Positions 13,438 through 61,240 of a stretch of 64,000 bases of DNA are shown piece by piece; the first letter of the stretch is position 1; the number at the start of each line of letters is the position of its first letter. The notes beneath the pieces were generated by a model. That model was not told where the DNA came from, did not search any database, and saw only the letters and a program-made list of their open reading frames with translations. The position numbers were made by a program, and so were the translations under genes. This DNA is from Aquipuribacter sp. SD81 (GTDB taxonomy: Bacteria; Actinomycetota; Actinomycetes; Actinomycetales; JBBAYJ01): contig NZ_JBBAYJ010000015.1 of the NCBI RefSeq assembly GCF_037153975.1, positions 1 to 64,000 of the forward strand. Direction: 5' to 3'.

Positions 13438-13466
13438 CGGGCTGCGGTCCGCTTCCGCCGCGCACC

Positions 13467-13516
13467 AGGGGCGGATTCCGTCGCCGGGACTCTGTCCGGC
13501 CGCGGAATCCGCCCCT
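13467..13516. repeat. 14-bp perfect inverted repeat upstream of gabT
   Basis: AGGGGCGGATTCCG (13467-13480) and its exact complement CGGAATCCGCCCCT (13503-13516) are separated by 22 bp, ending 11 bp before the gabT ATG. It could be an operator for a dimeric regulator or a stem-loop at the end of the protease transcript. There is no T-run, and the position over the gabT 5' end favours an operator. Confidence 0.6.
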
Positions 13517-13527
13517 ATGCTGCGCGC

Positions 13528-47183: not shown

Positions 47184-48458
47184 TCATGGGACCACGGCGT
47201 CGCCTCCCCCCACCCCGGCGCCACGCCGCCAGCCGTCGTCCCCGCGCTCGACGGTGCCCTCGAGGACCAGCCGGGCGAGCGCGCCCGCCGCCTCGTGGTG
47301 CGCGAGCCCCGTCGCCGCCACCACGTCCTCGAGCCGTCGCCAGCGCGAGCGGCGCAGGGACTGCAGGACCCGTTCGGTCGGCACCCGCGCGTCCTCGGCG
47401 CGCCGGTGCCGGTCACCGCCCCCCTCGCCGGCCGAGGAACCGGCGTCGTCGGAGGCGTCGGCGTCGTCGGAGGCGTCGGCGTCGTCCGCGGCGTCCAGCG
47501 GCAGCGTCGCCTGGCCGAACGGCTCGACGAGCCGGACGACGTCGTCGGCGCACGTCACGCACGGGACACCGTCGCGCAGCAGGCCGTTGCTGCCCGCGGA
47601 CAGCCCCGACGTCACCGGTCCCGGGACCGCGGCGACGTCACGGTGCAGGTCCCCGGCCACCCTGGCCGTCTGCAGGGCGCCGGAGCGGTGGCCGGCCTCC
47701 ACGACGACCGTCGCCCGGGTCCACGCGGCGATGAGGCGGTTGCGCAGCAGGAACCGGTACGGCGCCGGGCGCGTGCCGGGCGGCACCTCGGACACGACCG
47801 CGCCGCCGAGGTCGACGACCCGCTGCAGCAGGTCCGCGTGCCCGGCGGGCGAGGCCCGGTCCGCCCCGCCCGCGAGGACGGCGACGGTGGGCAGGGGCGG
47901 GACCACGCCCCCGGCTCGCAACGTCGCCGCGGCGCCGAGCGCCCCGCCGTGCGCGGCGGCGTCGATGCCGTACGCCGCCCCGGACACGACCGTCCACCCG
48001 CGCTGGACGAGGCCAGCACCGATGTCCTGCGCGACGTGGGTCCCGTACGCGCTGCACATCCGCGCCCCGACCACCGCGGCGGCGCGTGGCGCGTCGGCCG
48101 GCAGCGTGCCACGCACCCACAGGCACGCGGGCGCGGACGAGGCCTCGCTGTCGAGGTCGCCGAGGCCCGAGGGCCACGCCGCGTCACCCGGGTGCACGAC
48201 GCCGACGCCTCGGCGGGCGAGCGTCCCGACGAAGTCGCTGGTCCGGCTGCGCAGCTGCGCGTGACGCACCGTCCACACCTCGGGGCCGCCGCCCCGCCGC
48301 GCGAGGGCGAGGGTCTCCCGCCACCCGCGCTCGGCGAGCAGGCGGTGCAGCGCGGGGTCGCCCGGCTCGGCGACCCGCGACAGGTGCGCGCGGGCGAGGC
48401 GCTCGTCGTGCTCGCAGCCGTGCGCCGGGTCGTCGGTGCGCTGCACGACGGCGCTCAC
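47184..48458 (-). CDS. dprA: DNA-processing protein DprA
   Basis: 424 residues. The Rossmann-like core has AAAVVGARMCSAYGTHVAQD, RGWTVVSGAAYGIDAAAHGG, VVPPLPTVAVLAGGADRASP and GAVVSEVPPGTRPAPYRFL. DprA loads RecA on incoming single-stranded DNA during transformation. A C-terminal winged-helix-like domain follows an Asp/Ala-repeat linker (ADDADASDDADASDDA). The GTG at 48458 overlaps the comM stop (GTGA), so translation was coupled to comM; the element in comM may therefore affect it. Confidence 0.95.
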   Translation of the reverse strand: MSAVVQRTDDPAHGCEHDERLARAHLSRVAEPGDPALHRLLAERGWRETLALARRGGGPEVWTVRHAQLRSRTSDFVGTLARRGVGVVHPGDAAWPSGLGDLDSEASSAPACLWVRGTLPADAPRAAAVVGARMCSAYGTHVAQDIGAGLVQRGWTVVSGAAYGIDAAAHGGALGAAATLRAGGVVPPLPTVAVLAGGADRASPAGHADLLQRVVDLGGAVVSEVPPGTRPAPYRFLLRNRLIAAWTRATVVVEAGHRSGALQTARVAGDLHRDVAAVPGPVTSGLSAGSNGLLRDGVPCVTCADDVVRLVEPFGQATLPLDAADDADASDDADASDDAGSSAGEGGGDRHRRAEDARVPTERVLQSLRRSRWRRLEDVVAATGLAHHEAAGALARLVLEGTVERGDDGWRRGAGVGGGDAVVP

Positions 48459-49327
48459 GCCGCGACCGCCAGGGTGCGGAACGACAGCGCCTCGGCGACC
48501 TCCAGCTCACCCGGCGACGTGCGCCCCGCCAGGTCGGCGAGGGTCCACGCGACGCGCAGCGTGCGGTCGAAGCCGCGGGCGGTGAGGGTGCCGCGGTCCA
48601 CCCCCTTCACCAGCGGCGCGAGGACGCGCGCGGGCGGACGGAAGCGTGGGTGGCGCAGCAGCGGACCGGGCACGTGGCCGTTGGCGCGCGCCGCGCCCGC
48701 CCAGCGCGCGGCCGCCGCGGCGCGGGCGGTGCTCACGCGGCCGGCGACCACGGCGGTCGCCTCGCCGGTCTCCGCCCCCGCCCAGCGGCCCACCGACACC
48801 GCGGGCACGTCGACCTGGACGTCGACCCGGTCCAGCAGCGGCCCGGACAGCCGGGCGAGGTAGCCGCGGCGGACGGTGGGGGTGCACCGGCACACCGGCC
48901 CGCCCGGCGGCGCGCCCGCGTGACCGCACGGGCACGGGTTGGCGGCGAGGACCAGCTGGAAGCGGGCGGGCAGCCGGGCGGAGCCGCGGGCGCGCTGGAT
49001 CTCCACGACACCCTGCTCCAGCGGCTGGCGCAGGGCGTCGAGGACGCCGCGGCGGAACTCCGGGCACTCGTCGAGGAACAGCACCCCGCCGTGCGCCCGG
49101 CTGGCCGCGCCGGGCCGCGGCACACCGCTGCCGCCGCCGACCACGGCCGCGACGCTCGCGCTGTGGTGCGGGTCCTCGAACGGCGGCCGGCGCAGCAGGA
49201 CGGGGTCGGCGAGGGTGCCGGCCAGGGAGTGCACCGCGGTGACGGTGAGGGCGTCCTCGTCGTCGAGGTCCGGCAGGATGCCGGGCAGCCTCGTCGCGAG
49301 CATCGTCTTCCCCGAGCCCGGCGGGCC
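48455..49327 (-). pseudogene. comM: comM/yifB C-terminal part, split off by the inserted element
   Basis: The 3' part of the Mg-chelatase-like AAA ATPase ComM (YifB), a branch-migration helicase used in natural transformation. The reading frame starts inside the Walker A codons (GPPGSGKTMLATRLPGILPD, then PFEDPHHSASVAAVVGGG, GGVLFLDECPEFRR, QLVLAANPCPCG and the C-terminal domain). The 5' part lies at 60169-60848. Joined at the shared core, the two parts total 1545 bp, an uninterrupted 515-codon frame. An ATG within the fragment (49303) could start a truncated protein, but it would lack nucleotide binding. Confidence 0.93.
49320..49327. other. Left attachment core (attL)
   Basis: GGCGGGCC shared with 60169-60176. 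Left of it is comM sequence (CCCCGAGCCC); right of it is element sequence (TAGTCTGAGTC). The integrase gene begins 12 bp further in. Confidence 0.85.
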
Positions 49328-49339
49328 TAGTCTGAGTCA

Positions 49340-50833
49340 GTGACGGTTATTCGAGCGGTCCTCTACACGCGTCTGTCCGAGTCGGACGAGGCTTCGACCT
49401 CTCTCGCGCGACAGGAGGCCGACCTCCGCGCCCTCGCCGACCGCGAGGGCTGGACCGTCACTGAGGTCCTCGCCGACGACGGGCTCTCCGGCGGCAAGGA
49501 CAGGGTGAAGGCCGACCGTGCGCTCGACCTCCTCCGGAGCGGCGCCGCTGACGTGCTCGCCGTCTGGAAGCTCGACAGGTGGAGCCGGCAGGGCATCGGC
49601 ACCGTGGCACGCCTCATGGACGTGCTCGAGGAGCGCCCCGAAGCACTCTTCGTCGCAGACCGCGACGGCATCCGGTCCGACCAGGCCGGGTGGCGCCTCA
49701 CCGCCGCCGTCCTGTCCGAGGTCGCCCGTACCGAGCGGGAGAACACTCAGGTCCGCGTGCGCTCGGCCATCAAGAGGATGCGCCGTGAGGGCCGCTTCCC
49801 CGGCGGAAACGTCCCCTATGGCTACCGCACAGCGGCGGCGCCGGACGGCCCGGGCCGCGTTCTCGAGATCGACCCTGACGAGGCCGCCGTCGTGCGCGAG
49901 GCCGCCTCTCGCGCCATCGCCGGGGAGAGCCTCTACGCCATCTCCAAGGACTTCGGCAGGCGCGGGCTCAAGCCTCGCCGCGCCAAGGAGTGGAGCATTT
50001 CCTCGCTCCAGGTAGTGCTCACGAGCGAGCCCGTCGTCGGTCGCCTCACCAAGGTCTCCCACGTCACCGAGGGCGGCCGCACCCGCCGCGTGCGAGACGT
50101 CGTCCGCGACGACGACGGCAACCCCGTCCAGATGTGGCCGCCCGTCCTCGACCTCGAGACCTGGCACCGCGTCCGGGCACGCTTCTCCGCCCGCGGGGAG
50201 AACGCCGTGGCGCCTCGCCGCCGCCGCGCCCGTCTCCTGTCCGGCATCGTCACCTGTGGACTATGCGGACGGCCGCTGTACGTGCGGACCAACGCTCGCC
50301 AGGACCTCGCCTACGCATGCAGTGCTGGCTCGCAGGGCAAATCCTGCCCCGGCGTCTCGATCTCCTGTCCGCACCTCGAGGACTACGTGACGGAGCAGTT
50401 CCTCGCCGACGTCGGTCCGGCGGAGGTGGTCGACCGCGTCGTGGAGGCGCCCGACGACGCCGACGCCGCCGAGGTGGAGGCCTCCATCGCCGCGACGACG
50501 CGGCAGATGGGCGACGACGACGCCGACGTGGAGGCCCTGTCCAAGCGCCTCGCCGCGCTCAAGGAGCGCCGGGCCGTCATCCGCTCACGTCCGCGAGAGC
50601 GCCGGGTCCGCATCGTCCCCACCGGCCGCACCTTCGCCGAGGAGTGGGAGGACGGCGACCTCGTCCGCCGCCGCGAGCTCCTCGAGGCCAACACGGCCGT
50701 CATGGCCATCGCCAAGGGCAAGAAGGGCCGGAAGACCTTCGACCCGTCCCGCGTGACGTGGGTGACGACGCCACCGCATCCCGCGGACGCAGAGCACCCC
50801 AACGCGCTCACGTCCCCGCGCCGCGTGGTCTGA
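49340..50833 (+). CDS. Large serine recombinase (integrase)
   Basis: 497 residues. The N-terminal resolvase domain has AVLYTRLSESDEASTSLARQ with the nucleophile Ser13, DDGLSGGKDRVKADRALDLL and VWKLDRWSRQG. A recombinase domain follows (RFPGGNVPYGYR, LKPRRAKEWSISSLQVVLTS), then a zinc-ribbon (IVTCGLCGRPLYVRTNARQD, CSAGSQGKSCPG) and a coiled-coil region after residue ~370, the full large-serine-integrase plan. It reads inward from attL. GTG start only 12 bp from the core, with no clear ribosome-binding site. It should catalyse integration into comM, and excision with a helper directionality factor. Confidence 0.95.
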   Translation: MTVIRAVLYTRLSESDEASTSLARQEADLRALADREGWTVTEVLADDGLSGGKDRVKADRALDLLRSGAADVLAVWKLDRWSRQGIGTVARLMDVLEERPEALFVADRDGIRSDQAGWRLTAAVLSEVARTERENTQVRVRSAIKRMRREGRFPGGNVPYGYRTAAAPDGPGRVLEIDPDEAAVVREAASRAIAGESLYAISKDFGRRGLKPRRAKEWSISSLQVVLTSEPVVGRLTKVSHVTEGGRTRRVRDVVRDDDGNPVQMWPPVLDLETWHRVRARFSARGENAVAPRRRRARLLSGIVTCGLCGRPLYVRTNARQDLAYACSAGSQGKSCPGVSISCPHLEDYVTEQFLADVGPAEVVDRVVEAPDDADAAEVEASIAATTRQMGDDDADVEALSKRLAALKERRAVIRSRPRERRVRIVPTGRTFAEEWEDGDLVRRRELLEANTAVMAIAKGKKGRKTFDPSRVTWVTTPPHPADAEHPNALTSPRRVV

Positions 50834-50907
50834 GCAGATCCGAGATCCTCGCAGACCTCCTAGGTGAGAGGGCCTGTAAACGGCCCGCCGACCGAGGAGC
50901 CCCCACC
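50834..50907. other. Integrase to zinc-finger spacer
   Basis: The 74-bp spacer ends with ACCGAGGAGCCCCC, a ribosome-binding site for the GTG at 50908. No other feature seen. Confidence 0.5.
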
Positions 50908-51169
50908 GTGCCCGCGTCGACGACGCTCGAGGACCACCTAGTCACGCGCTACCCGGACGACACCGTCCCCGAGGCCGCCGCCCGCCGGGCCGCGGTCCTC
51001 CGCGCCGCCCTGCGCCGCGTCCGCGCCGCCGAGGTTATGGAGCGCGCGACGTTCAAACGCTGCCCCCAATGCGCGCGAGACCTGCCGCTCGAGAGCTTCC
51101 ACCGGAAACTCCGCGCGGCCGGACGGGCGCGCCTCCTCGTGCAAGGAGTGCCGACGCGGCCGACACTGA
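50908..51169 (+). pseudogene. Small two-CxxC zinc-finger protein, apparently frameshifted
   Basis: Starts with GTG and GAGGAG upstream: VPASTTLEDHLVTRYPDD, a helical Arg-rich stretch, then KRCPQCARDLPLESFHRKLR. The second half of the zinc motif (DGRASSCKECRRGRH and stop at 51169) lies in the frame one base on. Removing one G at about 51120-51122 joins both halves into a ~86-residue protein typical of phage HNH-associated zinc ribbons. As read, the frame instead runs to 51273 without the second CxxC. Either a mutation, a sequencing error, or a real shifted product. Confidence 0.65.
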
Positions 51170-51199
51170 GTGACGACGCGGGGCCGGAGCGTGGCGGCC

Positions 51200-51326
51200 G
51201 GTGGGGTTTTGGTGCTCCAGGTGGGGTTTTCCCACTTCTCCCCCATTACCTCTATATGGAGGCTCTCTTATAAGGGGAATGGGGGCAGGTGGGCCAAAAC
51301 CCCACCTGAGACCTTAAAACCCCACC
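51200..51326. repeat. Symmetrical four-copy GGTGGGGTTTT array (origin- or operator-like)
   Basis: GGTGGGGTTTT occurs at 51200-51210 and 51220-51230, and its complement AAAACCCCACC at 51296-51306 and 51316-51326. Each pair is 20 bp apart, and both pairs are symmetrical about position ~51263. Inside them, CCCACTTCTCCCCCATT (from 51231) faces AATGGGGGCAGGTGGG (to 51293), an imperfect inner dyad. The centre (51249-51275) is AT-rich for this genome, with TCTATATGG and TTATAAGG. This resembles a replication origin with inverted iterons or a regulator-binding hub. Confidence 0.75.
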
Positions 51327-51587
51327 TAGCCCTCCGCGGCGAGCCCCCGTGAGCGCCTGGGTCACTCTGCTCGCAGACGTCCCAAGTAGAGACCACCGCC
51401 GGCCGGTCGACGCCGACCCCGCGCCCCTGGCGTCCCCTTCCGCCTTGCCGAGCGCCCGGCTCCCGGCCGGCGGTCTCCTCCCTCGCCACAAGGCCGTCCG
51501 ACTCGTCCCGTGCGGGTCGGACGGCCTCCCTCTCGCCCCTGTTCCGGCCAATCGCCGGCGACCGTCCGAACCTAGGAGCCCCGCCCC
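51327..51587. other. Structured non-coding stretch
   Basis: No convincing gene. It contains two inverted repeats described separately (51389-51527) and ends with CCTAGGAGCC, the ribosome-binding site of the gene at 51588. Short frames such as 51349-51603 lack recognisable features and a good ribosome-binding site. Confidence 0.5.
51389..51527. ncRNA. Possible structured RNA or terminator pair
   Basis: GAGACC-A-CCGCCGGCCGG (51389-51406) pairs with CCGGCCGGCGGTCTC (51463-51477) apart from small bulges. AGGCCGTCCGAC (51491-51502) pairs perfectly with GTCGGACGGCCT (51516-51527) around a 13-nt loop. Two strong stems in a gene-free part of the element suggest a non-coding RNA or transcription terminators. 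No T-tract follows. Confidence 0.4.
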
Positions 51588-51827
51588 ATGGCCCGACGCC
51601 TGACTTGCTCGGTATGCAACTCGACCTTCGACGCCAACCCGCAGGGCCGTCCGCCGGAGACGTGCTCCACGGAGTGCCGCCGCGTCGTCCGCTCGCGCTC
51701 CGAGGCCAACCGGGTCGCCCGCAAGCGCGCCGCCACCCGAGAAGAGGCCCTCGACGCCTTCCGCTCTCTCGCCCGCGCCGAGGCCGAGGCCGCCCTTGAG
51801 CGCGCTGGCATCGCCGCTCGCCGCTGA
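51588..51827 (+). CDS. Small zinc-finger protein (C4 type)
   Basis: 79 residues. MARRLTCSVCNSTFDANPQG gives the first CxxC, and ETCSTECRRVVRSRSEANRV supplies the CxxxC partner. The rest is a basic then Ala/Glu-rich helix (RKRAATREEALDAFRSLARA). A compact DNA- or RNA-binding protein is likely. AGGAG lies 10 nt before the ATG. Many actinophages carry such short zinc-finger proteins in the early region. Confidence 0.75.
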   Translation: MARRLTCSVCNSTFDANPQGRPPETCSTECRRVVRSRSEANRVARKRAATREEALDAFRSLARAEAEAALERAGIAARR

Positions 51828-51843
51828 CCGCGCGGCCCAACCA

Positions 51844-51951
51844 CTTCCCCGGCCGTCGTGTCGGGGAGGGAGTCCGTGGTGGGACTTGCAGAAGACCCGA
51901 CCCGCTGAGAGCACCGCGACGCCATCGCGGAGCTCGGTGGGTCGGGTCTTC
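51844..51951. terminator. Pair of strong stem-loops ahead of the repA-like gene
   Basis: CTTCCCCG (51844-51851) faces CGGGGAG about 10 nt on. GAAGACCCGACCC (51891-51903) pairs perfectly with GGGTCGGGTCTTC (51939-51951), and the loop itself contains CCGCGA-cgcca-TCGCGG. The nested long hairpin would stop or attenuate transcription, or act as an RNA or origin structure. The region 51828-52157 holds no gene otherwise. Confidence 0.55.
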
Positions 51952-52157
51952 GCCCCTCCGCCCGAGACCTCCCGCCCCCACTCGTCAAGCGTGACGGACC
52001 GCCCGTGACGGGACTGACGAGGACCCCGCGAAACCGCTGGTCAACGGCCGCGCCTCAACGCGTCACCGCACCGAGTCCGGTGTTGAAGAGCGCATGACGG
52101 GGTTGGCCCCCGGCGACAACTCCCACCACCCCAGACCTCCGCCAGAAGGACTCCCCC

Positions 52158-53504
52158 GTGCGACGCCCCACCATCGAGCAACTGGCCGCCGACCTCGGCG
52201 CCACCGACCCTGTCCCCACCGACGACGGCCTCCGCGCCCTCTGCCCCGCGTGCATGACCGGCGCAGCCCTCACGATCACCACTCCTGTCCCCGGAACGGG
52301 CGCGACCCTGTCGTGTGCGTCCGGATGCCACCTCGGCGACATCGCGGAGGCACGAGGCCTCACCCAGGCACGCCTCGACGCGTTCCTTGAGAGCGCCACG
52401 ACCCGCGACGCCCCGGCCGCTGCAAGTAACCTCGCCGCCGGCCTCCTGGACCGGCACGACCTGTCCAGCCTCCCGGCCGCTGAGCCGCTCATCGCCGACA
52501 CGCTCGACCGTCGCACCGTCGCCTTCCTCGCCGGCGCACCCGGCTCCTACAAGACCTTCACCGCGCTCGCGTGGGCGTGCTCCATCGCCACGGGCACCGC
52601 GTGGCTGGGACGCCAGGCCGAGCCCGGCAAGGTGCTCTATGTCGCAGCAGAGGGCACAGGTGGCCTCGACGCCCGCGTGACCGCTTGGGAGCGGCACAAC
52701 GGGATGACAGTCCCCGCCGGGAAGCTCACTGTCTTCCCGGACGCCTTACCGCTGGCAGACCCTGAGGTCCTGGAGGGCGTGTGCCGTCTCGCCGCCGCGG
52801 AGGACTACGACCTCGTGGTCGTGGACACCCTCGCCCGAGCCGCCCACGGCCTCGTTGAGGAGAGCTCGAAGGACATGGGCCTCCTCATGGACGCTGCGCA
52901 CCGCGTCCGCCGAGCGACAACCCGCGGCACCGTCCTCTTCCTCCACCACTCCTCCAAGAGCGGCGCCACCCTTCGCGGGTCCTCTGCGCTCGAGGGCGCC
53001 AGCGACACCGTCTGGACGTCCACCCGCAAGGGCCGCGGCGTGCTGCTCCGGTGCGTCCGCGCCAAGGACCGCGACTTCGACGCCGACGTCTTCGACCTGG
53101 CACCGAACGCGTCCGGTGACTCCATCGTCCTCGCCCTCCGCGACGACACCGAGCAGGACAAGACCCCTGGCGGTCTCCGCGAGGAGACGCTCACCGTCTG
53201 GCGGGACCTCGACCAGACCTTCGGCGCCGCCCGGCAGACCTTCTCGAGAAGCGAGGCCTTCCGAGCGGTCCGTGAGGCCGCGCGGGACGACGCCACGGGC
53301 CTCTCCGACGCGACGCTCCGCCGGCGTCTCAACGACCTTCTCGAGCTCGGCACGGTCGTCCGCGTCGCGGCACCCTCCGGCTCCCGCGCCGACCGCTTCA
53401 CCTTGGCCCGCGACACCGCAGAGCGTCACGGCCTGCCGCTGCACAACGTCATGCGCGACGACGGCGACACGTTCCTCGACGCCGTCACCGCGCCGGCCGC
53501 CTGA
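52158..53504 (+). CDS. RepA-like zinc-finger AAA ATPase (replicative helicase/primase-helicase type)
   Basis: 448 residues. A zinc-binding module near the N-terminus has Cys29 and Cys32 (CPAC) and Cys53/Cys57 (CASGCH), as in primase zinc domains. A RecA-fold ATPase follows: Walker A GAPGSYKT at 126-133 and Walker B DLVVVDT with Asp223, then FLHHSSKSGATLRGSSALEG, the pattern of RepA/AAA_25 hexameric helicases. The C-terminal part looks like winged helix (LSDATLRRRLNDLLELGTVV). It probably replicates the excised element from the repeat region at 51200. GTG start; weak GAAGGA upstream. Confidence 0.85.
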   Translation: MRRPTIEQLAADLGATDPVPTDDGLRALCPACMTGAALTITTPVPGTGATLSCASGCHLGDIAEARGLTQARLDAFLESATTRDAPAAASNLAAGLLDRHDLSSLPAAEPLIADTLDRRTVAFLAGAPGSYKTFTALAWACSIATGTAWLGRQAEPGKVLYVAAEGTGGLDARVTAWERHNGMTVPAGKLTVFPDALPLADPEVLEGVCRLAAAEDYDLVVVDTLARAAHGLVEESSKDMGLLMDAAHRVRRATTRGTVLFLHHSSKSGATLRGSSALEGASDTVWTSTRKGRGVLLRCVRAKDRDFDADVFDLAPNASGDSIVLALRDDTEQDKTPGGLREETLTVWRDLDQTFGAARQTFSRSEAFRAVREAARDDATGLSDATLRRRLNDLLELGTVVRVAAPSGSRADRFTLARDTAERHGLPLHNVMRDDGDTFLDAVTAPAA

Positions 53505-53537
53505 GACCCACAACTCCCCCACCACGGAAGGACCACC

Positions 53538-54032
53538 ATGACCGCCACCCTCACCCGTCCCGCGCCGCTCACGCTCCCCGGCTGGCTCCGCGAGACCTCC
53601 GCGACCGACGCCGAGGCCTCCGACCTCCTCGAGGCCCTCAGCGAGGTCGGCGCCCGCCCCCGCCAGCCCGGCGGCCTCATCGGCGCCGCACGCCGCTACG
53701 GCCTGCCGCTGAGGCTCCACACCATCGCCGCCCGCGTCGCCGCGGACTACGTCACCGCCCGCGACGCCCGGGAGGCGGAGATCCTCGAGCACCGCCTCAC
53801 CGCCCGCGAGGAGGCCGCCGTCACCGACGTCCGCCCCTCCCGCGACGGCGGCCACCTCGTGTACGCGGAGTGCGCGAGGTGCGGCCGCACCGTCCAGCAC
53901 GGCGGCGGCCCGGTCGACGGTCCCGTCGACCTCGGCCACCGCACGGCCCACTGCGAGTGCTCGGACTACTTCCTCGTGGACCCCAACGGCGTGGTCGCCG
54001 CCCTTGGCCTCACCGCCTCGCCGGAGGCGTGA
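53538..54032 (+). CDS. Hypothetical element protein with Cys/His cluster
   Basis: 164 residues, family not recognised. The N-terminal half is helical (LPGWLRETSATDAEASDLLE, then RRYGLPLRLHTIAARVAADY). The C-terminal half has CARCGRTVQHGGGP and HRTAHCECSDYFLV, a likely zinc site. GGAAGGA lies 8 nt before the ATG. Its stop overlaps the next gene's GTG, so it is coupled to the HNH nuclease gene. Confidence 0.75.
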   Translation: MTATLTRPAPLTLPGWLRETSATDAEASDLLEALSEVGARPRQPGGLIGAARRYGLPLRLHTIAARVAADYVTARDAREAEILEHRLTAREEAAVTDVRPSRDGGHLVYAECARCGRTVQHGGGPVDGPVDLGHRTAHCECSDYFLVDPNGVVAALGLTASPEA

Positions 54033-54313
54033 CGGTGCCCTGGGAGACGTCCAACCGCCGGAGTCGCCTACCCCGCGACTGGCAGACCCGACGGCGACAG
54101 ATCCTCAACCGTGACGGTCACTCCTGTCGCACCCTGGACCCCGAGACCGGGCAGATGTGCTGCGCGCCCGCCCGAGAAGTCGACCACGTCATCCCCGGCG
54201 ACGACCACCGGCCGTCCAATCTCCGCGCCATTTGTACGCCGTGCCACCGCGTGAAGAGCAGCGCCGAAGGCCGGGCGGCCATGAAGTCTCGGACCTTGGC
54301 CAGGCGTGCATGA
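54029..54313 (+). CDS. HNH endonuclease
   Basis: 94 residues. The ββα-metal fold is readable: ILNRDGHSCRTLDPETGQMC, then REVDHVIPGDDHRPSNLRAI and CTPCHRVKSSAEG; the catalytic His is in VDHVIP and the zinc is held by the four Cys. Small HNH proteins next to terminase genes cut DNA during packaging in many phages. GTG at 54029 overlaps the upstream stop (GTGA); GTG at 54035 is an alternative. It is the last gene of the rightward early block. Confidence 0.9.
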   Translation: MTVPWETSNRRSRLPRDWQTRRRQILNRDGHSCRTLDPETGQMCCAPAREVDHVIPGDDHRPSNLRAICTPCHRVKSSAEGRAAMKSRTLARRA

Positions 54314-54335
54314 CTTGGACTGGCCGTGGACGGCA

Positions 54336-54950
54336 CTAGTCGTCTCTGCTATCACGCGAGCAGACCCCTTCACCAGAATGGTCGGCTTGCTGCTCGGACT
54401 GCCGGAAGCCGGACAAGCGCAGGTTCGAGACATTGTCACCTATGAGAGGGGACCCCTTGGTGTTCTCGTCCCATCCTTCAATGGTGACACCCTCGACATT
54501 GACCATGTTGACGAGGTGATTACTGGACCCATCGCCATACAGGTTGCTGATCGTCACCCCCCGACTACTTCGGATTCTATGGAATGCACCAGCGCCGCCG
54601 CCCGGACGAGCCGGAGAAACGTCACTACGGTCATAACGCAAATCGACATAATGACCCTTGCATGCTGCGTGAGGACACTTGAACTCGCCCTTCGGTTCCC
54701 GCTTGCCGAGGAAGACGAAGGTGTCATCGCACCAGACGCAGCGATATACCGTAGATGGTGACGGCGTGCCCGACGGCCACGTCCGCGCAGAATCTCGGAA
54801 GTCGATACGGTTGCCACATTCGCGGCATTCGGTCTTGAACCGTCGTGCCCGCTTAGTCGACTCGACCACCAGCAATATGGAAGCGCTACATTCAGAGCAG
54901 ACAAATAGGAAGCGAAGCGACGGAGTGCCTCTCATATTGCTGCTCCGCAT
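54336..54950 (-). CDS. Lower-GC zinc-ribbon cargo protein of unknown function
   Basis: 204 residues; family not recognised. Four Cys pairs are spread as CSEC (~18), CREC (~42), CVWC (~71) and CPHAAC (~90), suggesting two zinc ribbons. The second half has short beta-rich repeats (VTISNLYGDGSSNHLVNMVN, VEGVTIEGWDEN), somewhat like a parallel beta solenoid. Base composition is visibly lower in GC than the rest, which points to recent acquisition. It follows the small membrane protein gene by 9 bp and is convergent with the HNH gene. A competing frame on the plus strand has no recognisable features. Confidence 0.6.
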   Translation of the reverse strand: MRSSNMRGTPSLRFLFVCSECSASILLVVESTKRARRFKTECRECGNRIDFRDSARTWPSGTPSPSTVYRCVWCDDTFVFLGKREPKGEFKCPHAACKGHYVDLRYDRSDVSPARPGGGAGAFHRIRSSRGVTISNLYGDGSSNHLVNMVNVEGVTIEGWDENTKGSPLIGDNVSNLRLSGFRQSEQQADHSGEGVCSRDSRDD

Positions 54951-54959
54951 ACGCGCCCG

Positions 54960-55343
54960 CTAATTGGCACCATCATCGCCTCGCTCCGTGATCTGCTCGA
55001 AGTCAAGATCCTCGGCGTCATCCGCTTGAAGTATCTGCCGACCCTTCGTGACGCTGATTGGCCCACTATGCATACGTCGCAGGGAGCCGAAGTGCATCAA
55101 CGGAACGGCTGAGTCTGTGGGGGAGCCGGCGGTCGTGCTGCGACTGCGAGACAACCGCTCAGCCAGTCCGGCCAGGACAGTGCCAAGGACACCGAGCGTG
55201 GCGACAACAACGCCTGCCAGGGTGCGAGGCCAACCCGGCTCTGGCAGGAACCAGGCTCCGAGAGCAGCACCGAGCGCGGCGAGGGTCAGCGCCACGCCAG
55301 CCGCCGAACGAAGCGGGGAGCCAGTCGTTGACGGCGTCTGCAC
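54960..55343 (-). CDS. Small cargo membrane protein (two membrane helices)
   Basis: 127 residues. Two hydrophobic segments (about 14-33 and 41-60: GVALTLAALGAALGAWFLP, AGVVVATLGVLGTVLAGLA) are followed by a Ser/Arg-rich and then acidic cytoplasmic tail. Family not recognised. It precedes the zinc-ribbon gene with a 9-bp gap, so both form a small leftward operon. A membrane protein coupled to a soluble metal-binding partner is a layout often seen in phage-exclusion systems, which is inference only. Confidence 0.6.
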   Translation of the reverse strand: MQTPSTTGSPLRSAAGVALTLAALGAALGAWFLPEPGWPRTLAGVVVATLGVLGTVLAGLAERLSRSRSTTAGSPTDSAVPLMHFGSLRRMHSGPISVTKGRQILQADDAEDLDFEQITERGDDGAN

Positions 55344-55641
55344 GCACGCACGTTACGTCTTCGTCCCTCGAACTTGGAAGAGATATGCAACTTGCGCTGC
55401 CGCTGCGCTCCGTCACGATGCGCCGCACGCCAGGTCAGTCGCTCCTATGGGCGCCAGCCGGGGCCGCAGTCGGCGTGGCAAATGCACGGCACCAGGGCGA
55501 CGTGACGACACCGCCCCCTCACCGGGTGGGGGGGGTTCCCTTGCGCTCCCTCTTCAAACAGTCGGAGAGGGCTGGCCCTCGACCTCCGCGTAGTAGCGCC
55601 TGGCGTTTTTCTGACCACCACCCGCACCCCGGAAGGGACCC
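55344..55641. promoter_or_regulatory. Divergent control region between cargo and terminase blocks
   Basis: A ~300-bp gene-free stretch between the leftward cargo and the rightward terS block. It ends with CCGGAAGGGACCC, the ribosome-binding site for the ATG at 55642. Promoters for both blocks should lie here; I cannot assign hexamers with confidence. Short frames crossing it have no recognisable features. Confidence 0.45.
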
Positions 55642-56028
55642 ATGAACCCCGAACCCACCGCCGACCACGACGCCTACGAGTGCCCTCCTCCGCCGGCCGG
55701 CATCACCGAGCGCGCCGCCGCGTTCTGGTCCGACTTCCACGACGAGATGGACGAGGACGACCTCGACCCGGACGCCCGCGAGACCGCCATCCTCACCGAG
55801 GCCGTCCGCGCCATGAGCACCGTCGACCGCCTCGAGGACCAGGCCTCGCGCCTCGAGTCCGTCCTCGTCCCCGGCTCCACCGGCAACGAGCGCGTCCACC
55901 CGGTCCTCGCCGAGATCGACAAGAACCGCAAGACCATCGCCACCCTCCTGACCGCGCTCAAGCCGCCGGCGGACCGCTCCGCCATCGGGAGGGCCAACGC
56001 GGCACGGCGCCGCGACCGGCGGAGGTGA
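55642..56028 (+). CDS. P27-type phage small terminase subunit
   Basis: 128 residues. DARETAILTEAVRAMSTVDR is the helical DNA-recognition part, and GSTGNERVHPVLAEIDKNRK followed by TIATLLTALKPP is the C-terminal signature of the P27/TerS family, where a GSTGxxxxHP element is typical. TerS marks phage DNA for packaging; in satellites it redirects helper capsids. No large terminase gene is nearby. Start ATG with GGAAGGG upstream. The C-terminus is strongly basic (ARRRDRRR). Confidence 0.7.
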   Translation: MNPEPTADHDAYECPPPPAGITERAAAFWSDFHDEMDEDDLDPDARETAILTEAVRAMSTVDRLEDQASRLESVLVPGSTGNERVHPVLAEIDKNRKTIATLLTALKPPADRSAIGRANAARRRDRRR

Positions 56029-56034
56029 CGCGCC

Positions 56035-56313
56035 GTGCCTCGAGCTCGCCGCCGTCCCCGCGCCGCTCCCCTCCCCGCGACGCCGCACCGCTCCGGTGAC
56101 CCCGTCCTGGACGAGGCCCGGACCGCCGTAGCGGCCCTGTACGCGCTGGACGGCACCTCGTCCCTCCTCCGGGCCTTCACCGCCCGCCACGGCCACGCGG
56201 AGGACGCCGTCGCCGCTCTCCGATCCGCTCACCGCGAGCAGACGACCGCCACGGGGCTCTCCGTCTCCTCGGCCGCGTGGCAGCACGCGGTCCGCGACCT
56301 CTCCGACCCCTAG
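56035..56313 (+). CDS. Small phage-like hypothetical protein
   Basis: 92 residues, Arg/Ala-rich leader then a helical segment (VLDEARTAVAALYALDGTSS, LLRAFTARHGHAEDAVAALR). Family not recognised. GGAGGTGA lies directly after the terS stop and 7 nt before the GTG start, an excellent ribosome-binding site, so it belongs to the terS operon. Confidence 0.65.
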   Translation: MPRARRRPRAAPLPATPHRSGDPVLDEARTAVAALYALDGTSSLLRAFTARHGHAEDAVAALRSAHREQTTATGLSVSSAAWQHAVRDLSDP

Positions 56314-56322
56314 GAGTCCCCC

Positions 56323-56583
56323 GTGCCACACCCCTCCCGTGACGCCATCGGCGCCGCGGCCCGTGAGGCCTACGCCTCATGGTCCGGCCGTCGCCGCGGT
56401 CCCAACGGCCGCGACGAGGTGGAGGGCCGCGTCTTCGCCCTCCACGGCTCCGACCGGGCGGTTTGTGCGGCTCTTGCCCGCGCCCGCCGCGCTCGCCTCG
56501 AGCACGACACGAACACGGCTCTCGCCCGCCGCGTCCTCGCCGACCTCGAGGCCGCCCCCACCAGCCACACCGAAGGAGCTTGA
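56323..56583 (+). CDS. Small phage-like hypothetical protein
   Basis: 86 residues: DAIGAAAREAYASWSGRRRG, then RVFALHGSDRAVCAALARAR and HDTNTALARRVLADLEA. Helical and basic; family not recognised. The preceding stop codon is part of its TAGGAG ribosome-binding site, 9 nt before the GTG, which supports real expression in the terS operon. Confidence 0.65.
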   Translation: MPHPSRDAIGAAAREAYASWSGRRRGPNGRDEVEGRVFALHGSDRAVCAALARARRARLEHDTNTALARRVLADLEAAPTSHTEGA

Positions 56584-56585
56584 CC

Positions 56586-57266
56586 ATGCCCACGATCACC
56601 GAGCGCAACGCCCGCGCCACCGCCGCCCGCGGCCGCGTCCCGGCCGTCAACTACAACCCCTCGGCCATCCCCGGCGCCGCCACGGCCGTCGCCACGTTCG
56701 CCACGCTCGCCGACACCGCGGTCTCCGCCGAGGTCGCCGAGCACGCCCGCATGGTCGCGCTGTACCGCGACGCCGACGCCGCCCTCCGCGCTCACGAGAC
56801 CCGCGACCTCGAGGAGGCCGAGGCCGAGGACCGCGCCGCCCTCGCCGACGCCCTGGCCGCCGGCAAGGACGACCCCGGCACCGCCGCCGCGGACGCCTTC
56901 CGCGCCGAGCGCACCCGCTTCCAGCGCCACGCCGAGGCCACCGGCGTCGCACTCCTCAAGGCCTTCCACGTCCTCCTCGACGCCATCGCCGAGCAGGAGG
57001 CCACCCTCAACCGCGAGGCGACCCGCGCCGAGACCAAGGCCCGCGCGTCCCTCGAGCGCGCGGTCACCTCCGCCCGCGAGGCCACGTCGGCCCTCGACCG
57101 CGCCGCCCGCGTCCGAGCCGTTGTCGGCCAAGCCCTCGAGCGCGGAGAGCGCATGAAGACGACCACGGGCACCCCGAGCGCCACGGCCCTCGTCGTCGGC
57201 CGCGAGGCCCTCCGGCCCGGCGCCCTCCTGGACGCCCTCGCCGGCTACCGGAAGGACGACGCGTGA
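56586..57266 (+). CDS. Long helical phage-like protein (coiled coil)
   Basis: 226 residues, almost entirely Ala/Glu/Arg-rich helix: EVAEHARMVALYRDADAALR, HETRDLEEAEAEDRAALADA, NREATRAETKARASLERAVT. The start is MPTITERNARATAARGRVPA. Composition recalls scaffold or structural accessory proteins, but I do not recognise a family. It starts 2 bp after the upstream stop, and its stop overlaps the next GTG. GAAGGAG precedes the ATG. Confidence 0.7.
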   Translation: MPTITERNARATAARGRVPAVNYNPSAIPGAATAVATFATLADTAVSAEVAEHARMVALYRDADAALRAHETRDLEEAEAEDRAALADALAAGKDDPGTAAADAFRAERTRFQRHAEATGVALLKAFHVLLDAIAEQEATLNREATRAETKARASLERAVTSAREATSALDRAARVRAVVGQALERGERMKTTTGTPSATALVVGREALRPGALLDALAGYRKDDA

Positions 57267-57571
57267 GCGAGCACAGAGCCGCACCCGAGCTCGACCTCAA
57301 GGCCATGCGCCGCGGCGTCGTCACAGCCGCCGGCTACGACGAGGACGTCGCCCGTTGGGTCCGCGGCTCCACTCCCGACGAGGTGGAGGCCGACCTCGCC
57401 GCGTTCGTGGCCGCGTCGGGCCTGCTCCGCGACGTCGGACCGGAGGACTCCGGCCAGGGCTCTCGCCGGCCGCCGCAGATGCGGCGCCTGCCGGGCCTCG
57501 GCGACGCCCTCCGAGGCCTGGCCTCCGACGGCGGCCGCAACCGCGAGGTGACGGCGGGGGTCCGCCGATGA
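57263..57571 (+). CDS. Small phage-like hypothetical protein
   Basis: 102 residues: APELDLKAMRRGVVTAAGYD, EDVARWVRGSTPDEVEADLA and AFVAASGLLRD. Similar short acidic/helical proteins precede structural genes in actinophages, but there is no firm family match. Both ends overlap neighbours (GTGA at the start, ATGA at the end), so it is translationally coupled on each side. Confidence 0.65.
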   Translation: MSEHRAAPELDLKAMRRGVVTAAGYDEDVARWVRGSTPDEVEADLAAFVAASGLLRDVGPEDSGQGSRRPPQMRRLPGLGDALRGLASDGGRNREVTAGVRR

Positions 57572-57807
57572 GCGCCCTCGACCCCTCCGACCCGCACACC
57601 TTCTGGCGCGCCGTCCGCGTCCTCGCGCGCTACGCCGATGTCCGACTCCGACTCGACACGTCCGGCTTCAGATGCCAGGGCGACACCGCCAGTTCGCCAG
57701 CTTCTCCACTGCCTGTCGGTCGTTCTTCAACCCTAGACGCCTCAAGTAGCCGGCAGGACCGCTCGTCATGCCCCAGATGTCCCTCATCGAGTGCGGGCGC
57801 TTACTAG
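57568..57807 (+). CDS. Probable truncated phage-like protein at the cargo junction
   Basis: 79 residues. The first ~35 (MSALDPSDPHTFWRAVRVLA, then RYADVRLRLDTSGFRC) read like a normal phage gene. After codon ~37 (position ~57675) the sequence becomes Ser-rich and uninformative, and base composition drops. This suggests the original 3' part was lost when the right-hand cargo was acquired. The ATG overlaps the upstream stop (ATGA). Confidence 0.5.
   Translation: MSALDPSDPHTFWRAVRVLARYADVRLRLDTSGFRCQGDTASSPASPLPVGRSSTLDASSSRQDRSSCPRCPSSSAGAY
57668..57787 (-). pseudogene. Possible gene remnant beside the right cargo
   Basis: A 39-codon minus-strand tail reads MRDIWGMTSGPAGYLRRLG, then LKNDRQAVEKLANWRCRPGI and a stop. 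It looks like natural protein sequence rather than antisense noise and ends exactly where the plus-strand gene loses coherence. It may be the last part of a gene left after a cargo exchange. Low certainty; no family recognised. Confidence 0.3.
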
Positions 57808-57816
57808 CCTTCCACC

Positions 57817-58788
57817 ATGGCAACCGTGAGCGACCTCGCCCCTGGGTACAACCTGTCCCGAGCGTGGATGAAGCGCTTGAGCGTCCTTGACTGGGTCTAC
57901 GACAGAGGCGGCGACGCTCCAGGTACGTTCGTGCCACTTGCGGACCTCCTTGGCGGGGAGCCGAAGGCGGCGCAAGCACTCGCTATGGAGATTGAGGAAC
58001 TCGGGCGCCGAGGTTGGCTGACGGTTGCCGCCACGTACGATCTGCCAGACTGGTCGTGCGCGCTGACCGTCGCGGGACTGGAATTCCTGGAAGAGGTGCG
58101 CAAGCGTCGCGGCGACGTGATTCCTCGTCGTCGCAGCGCTAGGGATGCACTTCTTCACTGGTTGTTCGCCATCAGATGCCAGGCCGCGCCAACTCCCGCC
58201 AACGTGAGGGAGTTCGCAACGAGTCCATATGGTTCATATTACGGGCACGCCTTCAACGAGACCGAGATAACTCAGGCCATCGAGTACCTCATGAAATCGG
58301 GTTACGTCATGGCCACCAGGGCCATGCGAGGCGACATCCTCCATCCCTCTATCACCGCCCAAGGTGAGCAGTTGCTCGAGCAGGGGCTATCGGTCAACGC
58401 GGTCCCGCCGAAGGACGCTGCTGACGACGCGCCACCTCCGCTCCACATACACGTCAACGGTTCGAACAACAACGTGGCCGCCTTCAGCCCCGGCGCCTCT
58501 CAGTCCGTCAGATTGAGCCAGGAGAATCAGCGCCAGATTCTCGCCGTAGCGGACGCTCTCACTGACACCATAGAGCTTCTCGGCCTCAAGGACGAGCAGC
58601 GCGATGAGGCACAGCGCGTCTCAGACTCCCTGAGAGGGGAGATTGCTTCGGCCGCCCCCGCGGTCAGTCGATTGCGGCAACTCCTGTCGAAGGCGCAGGA
58701 CGTCGCGGTCTCGGGAACGGGCACCGCTGTTGGACAAGCTGTAGTGGCATTAGCGCAGCAGGCACTTGACGGTATGACTAACGTATGA
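57817..58788 (+). CDS. Winged-helix cargo protein with GSNNN motif and helical C-terminus (candidate defence sensor)
   Basis: 323 residues. Two tandem winged-helix-like domains are suggested: about 20-95 (LADLLGGEPKAAQALAMEIE, ELGRRGWLTVAATYDLPDW) and about 105-190 (FATSPYGSYYGHAFNETEIT, then LMKSGYVMATRAMRGDI). A spacer leads to HIHVNGSNNNVAAFSPGASQ (residues 211-230), then a helical C-terminus (LTDTIELLGLKDEQRDEAQR, RQLLSKAQDVAVSGTGTAVG). GSNNN-plus-helix tails of this kind are common in uncharacterised actinobacterial proteins. Lower GC than its surroundings. The stop overlaps the membrane partner's ATG. Exact function unknown. Confidence 0.7.
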   Translation: MATVSDLAPGYNLSRAWMKRLSVLDWVYDRGGDAPGTFVPLADLLGGEPKAAQALAMEIEELGRRGWLTVAATYDLPDWSCALTVAGLEFLEEVRKRRGDVIPRRRSARDALLHWLFAIRCQAAPTPANVREFATSPYGSYYGHAFNETEITQAIEYLMKSGYVMATRAMRGDILHPSITAQGEQLLEQGLSVNAVPPKDAADDAPPPLHIHVNGSNNNVAAFSPGASQSVRLSQENQRQILAVADALTDTIELLGLKDEQRDEAQRVSDSLRGEIASAAPAVSRLRQLLSKAQDVAVSGTGTAVGQAVVALAQQALDGMTNV

Positions 58789-59480
58789 CCTCTTCAACCT
58801 CGCGCGCCCAATGGTGGGGCATATCTGGCATTGCCCTCCTTGGCCTACTGGTGGCCGTCAGCGCCATGGCAGACAACGCACCCGCACGCTTCCTAACAGC
58901 CCTTCTCCTCATCGTCGCTTGCGGACTAGCGTTGCTGGCGCGACGGATGACCAATTGGCCACGGTATGCGCTTGGCATAGTTGCCAGCGTCATCGCGGTG
59001 GCCGGAATAGTGGTCGGCGTCAGCGGGTGGCCGAACTCGGAAGAGGATGGATCCGGCAACGCACTAACTGAGGCAGTGCCTCCGCCTGAGATCATCACAG
59101 CGGCCGCGCCCGACGAGGGACCAGAGGAGTCAATCGGCGTTGAGACGCCCGCCGAGAGTATGCCGGGAGAAGTGACGATAGGCCTGGCCGCTGAGGAGTT
59201 CACCATTGAGGCCGGCGGCACCCATACGTTCTTGGATGGTGCTGTCGTTGTTGGCGCGCCCAATGTCTTCTCCAACTGGAGCCAGATCCGAGCGACCACG
59301 AACGTCGAGGAGTGCCCGAAGCAGAATATGGATGCAGGGCAGAGCTCCGTGCTCGAAGCGGAATCTGAGGGGATCAGGTTCTGGGCACGCGTTACGGTCC
59401 TCGACATCGCCACCAACACGGCCGTCGCCGTGCGAGTCGAGGAGGACACCGTCTGGGATCTCGTGGTGGGGCGTTGCTGA
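58785..59480 (+). CDS. Cargo membrane protein coupled to the winged-helix protein
   Basis: 231 residues. Three membrane helices near 13-28, 35-52 and 60-78 (WWGISGIALLGLLVAVSAMA, LTALLLIVACGLALLA, LGIVASVIAVAGIVVGVSGW) precede an acidic spacer (EEDGSGNALTEAVPPPEIIT) and a ~120-residue soluble domain (AEEFTIEAGGTHTFLDGAVV). The soluble part probably faces outside. ATGA overlap with the upstream gene means the two are made together. Family not recognised; possible membrane effector or exclusion protein. Confidence 0.68.
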   Translation: MTSSTSRAQWWGISGIALLGLLVAVSAMADNAPARFLTALLLIVACGLALLARRMTNWPRYALGIVASVIAVAGIVVGVSGWPNSEEDGSGNALTEAVPPPEIITAAAPDEGPEESIGVETPAESMPGEVTIGLAAEEFTIEAGGTHTFLDGAVVVGAPNVFSNWSQIRATTNVEECPKQNMDAGQSSVLEAESEGIRFWARVTVLDIATNTAVAVRVEEDTVWDLVVGRC

Positions 59481-59652
59481 CCTGCCTGGTCCGGTGTTGT
59501 GCATAGCAGACCAGCCCTCTCGCCCCGCAGCAGCCCAAAAGGTCCAGCTAGCCAAACGTCGCCGTTCAGCGCCTAGATGGCGTTTACAGCCGCGCACGAG
59601 CCACGACACGTTGCGCCCACAGTGTGCATGTCTCAGAGGCCACGGGTTGTGT
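59481..59652. other. Convergent spacer in the right cargo
   Basis: 172 bp between two converging stop codons; no gene or clear hairpin seen. Confidence 0.4.
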
Positions 59653-59985
59653 TCAGGCCCCGAGGTCGTTTCGGCCCCACGAGACCATGGCGAAACCCAC
59701 GCTGCTCAGGACGCTCGCCAGCATCCATGGGGACCATGCGGGTCCTGCGACGTCAAGGACCTGATCGATGAAGAGCGTCAGTCCGGCACCACCGAGCGTT
59801 CCCCCGAGCAGAAAACGCCTCTGGGCAGAACCTGCCGGCGTCAGTCGCTCGAGCGATTCGGCCACGCGGTAATGAACCGCCGTGGGGTCGTCGGCGCCTA
59901 CTCGCTTGGCGATGCGGCGGGCTGCGCGTCCCAGTCGACGCTCGAAGGCCGCAACAGCCTGTGCGCGATACTCATCCCCGGTCAC
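59653..59985 (-). CDS. Small cargo membrane protein near attR
   Basis: 110 residues. A helical cytoplasmic N-terminus (DEYRAQAVAAFERRLGRAAR, then VHYRVAESLERLTPAGSAQR) is followed by two membrane helices (FLLGGTLGGAGLTLFIDQVL, WMLASVLSSVGFAMVSW). GTG start. Family not recognised. It is the last gene inside the element and points away from attR. Confidence 0.6.
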   Translation of the reverse strand: MTGDEYRAQAVAAFERRLGRAARRIAKRVGADDPTAVHYRVAESLERLTPAGSAQRRFLLGGTLGGAGLTLFIDQVLDVAGPAWSPWMLASVLSSVGFAMVSWGRNDLGA

Positions 59986-60168
59986 TCAGTCTCCCCTAGC
60001 GTTCGAAACGGATAACGGACAAGGCTCCGCCTTGGGAGCCTGTGTCCCCGTCGCTCTCGGGGAGTGGTGCGGTCGATCAACATGAGTGGAACTGCGTTGC
60101 GGGAAGAACACTAGTTGCAGCCGCACCTCCGGTCAAGCCCGAGCCTGTACCGCTGAAGGGTCTTCGTT
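59986..60168. promoter_or_regulatory. Right end of the element
   Basis: No gene of the element's own; the broken comM frame reads into it as far as the stop codon at 60111-60113. It contains a hairpin AGGCTCC-N6-GGAGCCT (60022-60041). In an excised circle this stretch would sit directly upstream of the integrase gene, because attL leaves only 12 bp of element DNA before the integrase start. It may therefore hold the integrase promoter. Confidence 0.4.
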
Positions 60169-60848
60169 GGCGGGCCGAGCATGAGCAGGTGGTGCCCGCC
60201 GGCCGCGACGACCTCCAGCGCGCGCCGGCCCATCGGCTGCCCCACCACGTCGCACAGGTCCCCGCCGGGGACGGGCCCGGAGCCGGTCGGCGCGACCAGT
60301 TGTGGCGCCGGTGGAGGCGGGGGCCGCTCCTCGCCGCGGTGCAGGGCGACGGCGTCGCGCAGGGTCGTCACCCCGTGCACCCGGACCCCGGGCACGAGGG
60401 CCGCCTCGGCGGCGGCGGACGCGGGCACGACGACGTCGCGCACCCCGGCCCGCCGCAGGCCGAGGACGGCCGGCAGGACGCCCGGGGTGCGGCGCACGCC
60501 GCCGTCCAGCCCGAGCTCGCCGACGTGGCCCATACGGGCGACGTGCTCCGGCACCTCGCCCATCGCGCCGAGCACGGCGACGGCCACGCCCAGGTCGAAC
60601 GCCGTGCCGCTCTTGGGCAGGCCCGCGGGCGACAGGTTGACGGTGAGCCGCTGCTGCGGCGCCGTCCAGCCGCTCGCGGTGAGGGCCGCGCGCACGCGGT
60701 CACGGGCCTCGAGGACCCCCGCGTCGGGCAGGCCGGTTACGATCCACTGCACGAGGCCCTGGCTCACCTGCGCCTCGACCTCGACCGGGTGCCCGTCCAG
60801 GCCCAGCAGCGCCGCGCAGACCGTCCGGCCCAGGCGCGTGCCGCTCAC
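60111..60848 (-). pseudogene. comM: comM/yifB N-terminal part, split by the element
   Basis: The 5' part of comM: VSGTRLGRTVCAALLGLDGH, VEVEAQVSQGLVQWIVTGLP, then the conserved LTVNLSPAGLPKSGTAFDLG and GHVGELGLDGGVRRTPGVLP of the N-terminal ChlI domain, up to GGHHLLMLGPP, where the element enters at 60169-60176. The frame then reads 19 residues of element sequence (TKTLQRYRLGLDRRCGCN) and stops at 60111. The intact gene would continue at 49319. GTG at 60848 overlaps the yraN stop (GTGA). The truncated product has no ATPase core. Confidence 0.93.
60169..60176. other. Right attachment core (attR)
   Basis: GGCGGGCC. Element DNA (AAGGGTCTTCGTT) lies on the left and comM codons (GAGCATGAGCAG) on the right. 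Confidence 0.85.
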
Positions 60849-61240
60849 CCCACACCCCGCACGTGCTCGACGTCGGCCTGCCCGTCGGGACCGAGCTGCA
60901 CCGCGACGACGTCGACCCGGACGCCGCCGGCGTGCCGGACCCGGTCGGCGGGGCTCTGCTCGCCCCACCACACCCCGAACAGCCGGCGCAGCCGGCGCAC
61001 CTTGCCCGGGCCGACGGACTCCAGCGCGCTGCCGCAGCGCCCGCCGCGCCGGGTGCGCACCTCGACGACCACGACGTCACCGTCCGGGTCGAGCGCGACG
61101 ACGTCGAGCTCACCCGGGCAGTCGCGGGCGCGGCTGCGCCAGTTCGCGTCGAGCACCCGCCAGCCCGCCGCGACCAGCCGGTCGCGGACGAGCTCCTCCC
61201 CCAGCCGGCCCGTCGCCGCCTTGTCCGCCTGCGTCGTCAT
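60845..61240 (-). CDS. yraN: YraN family putative endonuclease
   Basis: 131 residues, UPF0102/YraN, a Holliday-junction-resolvase-like nuclease fold. GRLGEELVRDRLVAAGWRVL, ANWRSRARDCPGELDVVALD and VVVVEVRTRRGGRCGSALES contain the E-D-ExK catalytic set (Glu, Asp and Glu with the Arg/Lys partner). Start ATG at 61240. It leads the yraN-comM-dprA series that the element has cut. Confidence 0.92.
   Translation of the reverse strand: MTTQADKAATGRLGEELVRDRLVAAGWRVLDANWRSRARDCPGELDVVALDPDGDVVVVEVRTRRGGRCGSALESVGPGKVRRLRRLFGVWWGEQSPADRVRHAGGVRVDVVAVQLGPDGQADVEHVRGVG

Follow-up and report, generated by a model that had tools for sequence, protein, structure and literature searches.

The origins of phage-inducible chromosomal islands (PICIs) have an AT-rich region between two sets of iterons, a layout common to all PICIs identified in the work that described it (PMC6092414), and the C-terminal domain mediates binding to iteron origins both in the Rep of Staphylococcus aureus pathogenicity islands (SaPIs) and in the D5_N-type Cch2 (PMC7581432). 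In the Vibrio phage-inducible chromosomal island-like element (PLE), the repeats of a satellite origin are read by its own RepA_N initiator (PMC7145576). Here we describe a mirrored repeat of 127 bp at positions 51200-51326 of a 64,000-nucleotide stretch of DNA from Aquipuribacter sp. SD81 (contig NZ_JBBAYJ010000015.1; hereafter the window), which lies inside a small integrated element. We infer that this array is probably the replication origin, of PICI/SaPI organisation, of a phage satellite, an inference that extends to binding, melting, replication and helper dependence. The sequence design, its distribution, the homology of the core and the gene content are themselves observed, and an origin is the best reading of them.

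The four copies of GGTGGGGTTTT that an earlier note on this DNA had described, as two direct pairs 20 bp apart and mirrored at 51263, were found exactly where it had placed them (Table 1), and the 64-kb window holds no further exact copy. Three of the four extend to the 12-mer AGGTGGGGTTTT, which a search of the 3.86-Mb host genome, as the note had proposed, found confined to the array. Because the inner half-sites CCCAC and GGTGGG are present too, the order of the array is >> < core > <<. The AT-rich centre claimed by the note needs rewording: the core is less GC-rich than the element and AT-rich in that relative sense only. No other dyad centre in the 64 kb scores as well as 51263, where the array has its symmetry centre, and a sequence-agnostic score of mirrored 7-mers gave 25 for the array, 16 for the runner-up and 9-14 for five shuffles. 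The array stands 0.37 kb 3' of the integrase gene int and 0.8 kb upstream of repA. Positions 51190-51340 are predicted to fold into one long hairpin (-93.8 kcal/mol; z -8.9 as RNA and -8.5 as DNA), the strongest of the window (z -6.0 in the window scan, compared to -3.3 for the next). A hairpin of this predicted strength, in an element with HNH and terminase genes, could suggest an RNA hairpin, a terminator or a packaging (cos/pac) signal. We consider this very improbable, since no U-tract follows the hairpin and the lone terminator-like match is at chance level, a simple stem does not need direct repeats of half-sites, and the phage copies described below are two in number, in the early region and far from the terminase end.

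Relatives were first gathered by their related integrase, and later phages were chosen by their primase-helicase instead. The integrase-related elements and phages each showed one or two extreme hairpins in which short direct repeats, set in opposed blocks, enclose a core of lower GC content, and a CTCTCT tract was frequent. Their half-sites were ATGACG, AGTGACG, GGTGAA, GTGCACGTC and GGTGGGGTTTT, and the array of phage Reedo has the same order, >> < core > <<, as that of the window. Exactly two copies each were present in Reedo, Tweety19, Mysterium and Amyev; phage 4A and each of five IMG/VR phage records had two copies as well. Copy 1 lies upstream of a Cas4-type exonuclease operon that leads to the primase-helicase and DNA polymerase I (PolI) and copy 2 follows the integrase on its 3' side or takes the equivalent place; both positions are also occupied by arrays in an AZ-type prophage of genome G483.

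Among the phages selected by primase-helicase, TG1, phiC31, Sebastisaurus, Attoomi, Eden and Franklin22 carry an array and exactly one more copy in the sequence searched, and Buldak shows one. Two copies were also present in Barnstormer; for phiC31, Attoomi, Sebastisaurus, Franklin22, Barnstormer and Buldak this sequence was a part of the whole. Copies matched each other with E 1e-8 to 1e-30. A covariance model of 15 arrays, with the window left out (R2), gave scores that on their own are marginal for phiC31, Eden, Franklin22 and Buldak (E 0.004 to 0.5), so that the case for these phages rests on duplicated copies, placement and core. Lytic Microbacterium phages are among the carriers. The lytic-type Eden and Franklin22, whose left copy lies upstream of the gene preceding the exonuclease, have arrays in the absence of an integrase or an annotated repressor, and the integrase was therefore rejected as the array's cause. 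Half-sites are alike between the copies within a genome and differ between lineages (GTGACG, GTGATG, GTGCAG, AAGGGCG, GGGGGC/GTGCCC), a pattern that a cognate trans-acting factor would be expected to produce. No annotation of the replication origins of phiC31-type actinophages was found in the public records examined. An unannotated array was also seen upstream of ORF III in a fragment of Arthrobacter phage phi AAU2 (L083; Y11761) with the 'aborting lytic development' gene ald.

The array phages share a D5_N primase-helicase. The AZ-type protein, held by 266 phage records, has Toprim, D5_N and superfamily 3 (SF3)-like domains, and its closest solved relative is PDB 7ola, which we take to be the SaPI5 primase-helicase. 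Conservation is lowest in its winged-helix region, whose groups roughly follow the half-site: identity to Reedo in this region is 38-50% in TG1, phiC31 and Sebastisaurus and 24-35% in Eden, Franklin22, Buldak and Attoomi, although Eden-type phages are more alike elsewhere in the protein. This tracking of the half-site is suggestive and falls short of proof.

We compared the phages with other satellites, which carry one array copy where phages carry two. R2 matched in 10 of 400 G308-family genomes. The order integrase, array, capsid was found in L091, L103, L105, L110 and L111; in L090 and L076 the array lies elsewhere in the element, and L104, L106, L107 and L112 also bear arrays. Capsid-bearing satellites have a phage-type array, the best of them found blind with E 1e-10 to 1e-18, together with terminase-like and defence genes by Pfam and PHROGs. 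In these elements no replication gene was recognised with Pfam and PHROGs, on crude gene calls and partly known borders. The defence cargo comprises N6 methylase/Eco57I, GmrSD, HEPN and AbiJ genes in L090, L091, L103, L104 and L110, with AbiJ in L104, an element with no capsid match. A small zinc-finger gene is near the array in most satellites, including that of the window, and was not found near phage arrays. At least L090, L091 and L103 adjoin a dprA-like sequence. The array-bearing island L075, which has a divergent half-site, encodes a 335-aa protein (13169-14176) that may be a replication protein; Pfam, PHROG and PDB searches with it gave no match.

The main rival, which we consider unlikely, is an early-operon control hub, where a phage or satellite regulator on the mirrored half-sites would switch the adjoining operon and the hairpin would be a by-product. 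Phage copies do mostly precede the exonuclease-to-replication operon and a small-gene operon, and the array stands before the capsid operon in many satellites; in L107, however, it sits between convergent genes. The promoter-like motif TGAGCA...GTCCC, the phage analogue of element 2 of the window (Table 1), follows 3' of the array in AZ-type phages, in several satellites and weakly in the window, but it is missing from about half of the satellites, and one window copy lies upstream of the array with no array preceding it. No regulator family is common to all carriers; a repressor is annotated separately in phiC31 and TG1 and is absent from the annotation of Eden and Franklin22. A conserved core in a symmetric array has no obvious operator use, and phage-type arrays in satellites lacking replication genes are explained less simply by a hub. 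The hub operator that the earlier note had allowed for is thus weakened by the lytic-phage arrays and by the distinctness of the array from promoter-like motifs, while the operon-start positions still fit it. A dual-purpose site, at which one bound initiator serves both origin and transcription control as in baculovirus homologous regions (hrs) or autoregulated iteron origins, would reconcile the operon-start position with the linkage to the replication module, but it adds up two putative functions, and we rate it as distinctly improbable.

To place the window array relative to this family, a profile was built from 36 cores with the window left out. On the 64 kb it gave two overlapping matches, one per strand, both at the centre of the array (E 0.0015 at 51242-51288 and 0.027 on the reverse strand), with 15.0 bits compared to a maximum of 6.5 bits in 60 Markov shuffles. 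A model trained with the window included (R1) was circular and was dropped as evidence for the window. Taken with the design, the zinc-finger gene, the repeated promoter-like element and a location 3' of a homologous integrase, the core match leads us to regard the window array as a divergent family member whose half-site is its own. Exact GGTGGGGTTTT pairs sought in viral and genome collections yielded unmirrored chance matches only, relaxed right-arm patterns likewise, and the DNA of the intergenic region showed no convincing similarity to phages. A GTGACGAAGTGACGG hairpin by a recO-like gene in G088 (L092:9853-9954; GC 0.72), where no phage genes were recognised, was set aside as possible chance or a relic.

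Several results weigh against the reading as an origin. R2 had no match at the window array at E up to 1, so that its place in the family is argued from the core profile, from design and position and from genes held in common. Operon starts, where an operator would be expected, hold both copies in most phages, and GC skew, which shows no switch at the arrays, was uninformative. Sebastisaurus combines a rather similar winged helix with a different half-site, and the absence of replication genes from satellites depends on the crude gene caller and on incompletely known borders. No such array accompanies the nearest RepA relatives that follow a serine integrase (L052 and L053), and the array occurs with no RepA in phages and other satellites. 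RepA was consequently rejected as an array marker, and the nearby helicase, on which the earlier note had leaned, supports an origin less than supposed; of the related elements that the note wanted searched, integrase relatives carry the design and these RepA relatives do not. The origin that the note proposed is still the best-supported reading, on the comparative evidence that phages have this widespread design together with the D5_N replication module and satellites retain it.

At such an origin, an initiator oligomer would assemble on each of the two opposed iteron sets, the core between them would melt, and a hexameric helicase would be loaded onto both strands. For the related phages, the most likely initiator is their own Toprim-D5_N-SF3-winged-helix primase-helicase. 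Satellites with no recognised replication gene have kept the phage-type half-site, and the helper's initiator would replicate them. The reader of the window half-site might be a helper sharing that half-site or the element's own set, in which the zinc-finger protein may accompany the RepA-like helicase; that the window RepA binds the array is a guess. More broadly, and tentatively, phiC31/AZ-type phages may replicate from a mirrored origin pair bracketing the early region, which some satellites would pirate with a single copy of the helper origin, others, such as that of the window, having switched to a private half-site and their own helicase. If so, some pirating satellites have capsid genes and defence cargo and no replication gene, and origin mimicry would be a possible amplification route for satellites of this kind. 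The array would then be a sequence marker for pairing satellites with helpers, and because the paired array can be recognised, the use of origins, the specificity of initiators and the matching of satellites to helpers become open to direct tests.

The element that houses the array splits comM/yifB (Mg-chelatase) at the Walker A codons, with the C-terminal part of comM at 48455-49303(-) and the N-terminal part within an open reading frame at 60111-60971(-); the 8-bp shared core GGCGGGCC was read at 49320-49327 and 60169-60176. It is small and integrated and has integrase, replication and packaging genes without a full virion set, Pfam and PHROG scans having recognised no capsid or tail genes in it. 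It is probably a phage satellite, with presumed helper dependence. The host genome has no D5_N protein and therefore no resident helper of that type. The helicase matches RSF1010 RepA (1g8y) with E 1e-5 and in its Walker motifs and fold; an AlphaFold2 model of modest confidence (mean pLDDT 59) shows a RecA core with 1nlf/1g8y as top fold match.

Table 1. Features of the array and of the element around it (window coordinates).
Feature	Position	Strand	Basis
Outer left half-site GGTGGGGTTTT	51200..51210	+	exact-motif search
Inner left half-site GGTGGGGTTTT	51220..51230	+	exact-motif search
Partial inward half-site CCCAC	51231..51235	-	read from sequence; matches inward half-site of phage arrays
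Core CCCATTACCTCTATATGGAGGCTCTCTTATAAGGGGAATGGGGGCAG, candidate melting region	51242..51288	+	match of core profile trained without window
Partial inward half-site GGTGGG	51288..51293	+	read from sequence
Inner right half-site (GGTGGGGTTTT, inverted)	51296..51306	-	exact-motif search
Outer right half-site (GGTGGGGTTTT, inverted)	51316..51326	-	exact-motif search
Whole element, ~10.85 kb	49320..60176	n/a	flanking comM parts and direct core read; boundary inferred
Serine integrase (Resolvase, Recombinase, Zn_ribbon_recom)	49340..50833	+	Pfam; PHROG 95; 47% to other array-bearing elements
Promoter-like element 1, TGAGCAGATC...CTCGCAGACCTCCTAGGT, directly after integrase	50831..50865	+	read from sequence
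Promoter-like element 2, TGAGCG...CTCGCAGACGTCCCAAGT, downstream of array	51350..51387	+	direct repeat of element 1; putative function
Small treble-clef zinc-finger protein, 79 aa	51588..51827	+	motif scan; no Pfam assignment
RepA-like RecA-fold hexameric helicase (AAA_25), N-terminal Cys cluster, predicted C-terminal winged helix	52158..53504	+	Pfam 1e-37
HNH endonuclease, cos-type, homologous to terminal HNH genes of AZ-type phages	54011..54313	+	phrog_333 4e-27
Terminase small subunit	55642..56028	+	phrog_1496 1e-8; 53% to L074

The 18-nt 3' part of promoter-like element 1 repeats at 51370, phages have TGAGCAGATC at similar places, and a sigma-70 scan gave nothing at element 2. A phage sigma factor might read the duplicated element, TGAGC...CTCGCAGAC-TCC (50831-50865 and 51350-51387); AZ gp44 matches a sigma-factor PHROG. 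A C-x2-C zinc-ribbon protein (CPQCARDLPLESF) resembling L110:10209-10436 and phage endonuclease-VII-like proteins is encoded at 50909-51166, in a reading frame that is apparently frameshifted near its 3' end. Two more GC-rich dyads (51395-51474 and 51491-51527) lie between the array and the zinc-finger gene, and a second strong hairpin, GAAGACCCGACCC / GGGTCGGGTCTTC, at 51879-51960 contains an inverted GGTCGGGTCTT that is half-site-like at 2 mismatches and oriented outward.

Compared to the PICI/SaPI origins (SaPIbov1, EcCICFT073), the window array has in common the two opposed iteron sets around a presumably easily melted core. A PICI origin lies immediately 3' of rep, whereas the window array is upstream of repA and next to a serine integrase, and the window helicase is RSF1010-RepA-like in contrast to the DUF927 or D5_N Rep of PICIs. 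Unlike PICI origins, the design is also found paired in full phages and in satellites with no recognised rep gene. Replication of P4 by its alpha protein involves two separate cis sites, ori1 and crr, with iterons for a primase-helicase that has a DNA-binding C-terminal domain; P4 is a satellite, however, while the two-site layout here is that of autonomous phages, and the comparison is one of layout. The RSF1010 oriV works with RepA, RepB and RepC, and the window helicase is a homologue of its RepA (1g8y, 1nlf), but RepC binds the RSF1010 iterons, which are direct repeats, and no RepC or RepB homologues were recognised in the window element. With the Vibrio PLE the array would share a satellite origin whose repeats are read by an initiator that the satellite encodes; the initiator family and the repeat layout differ.
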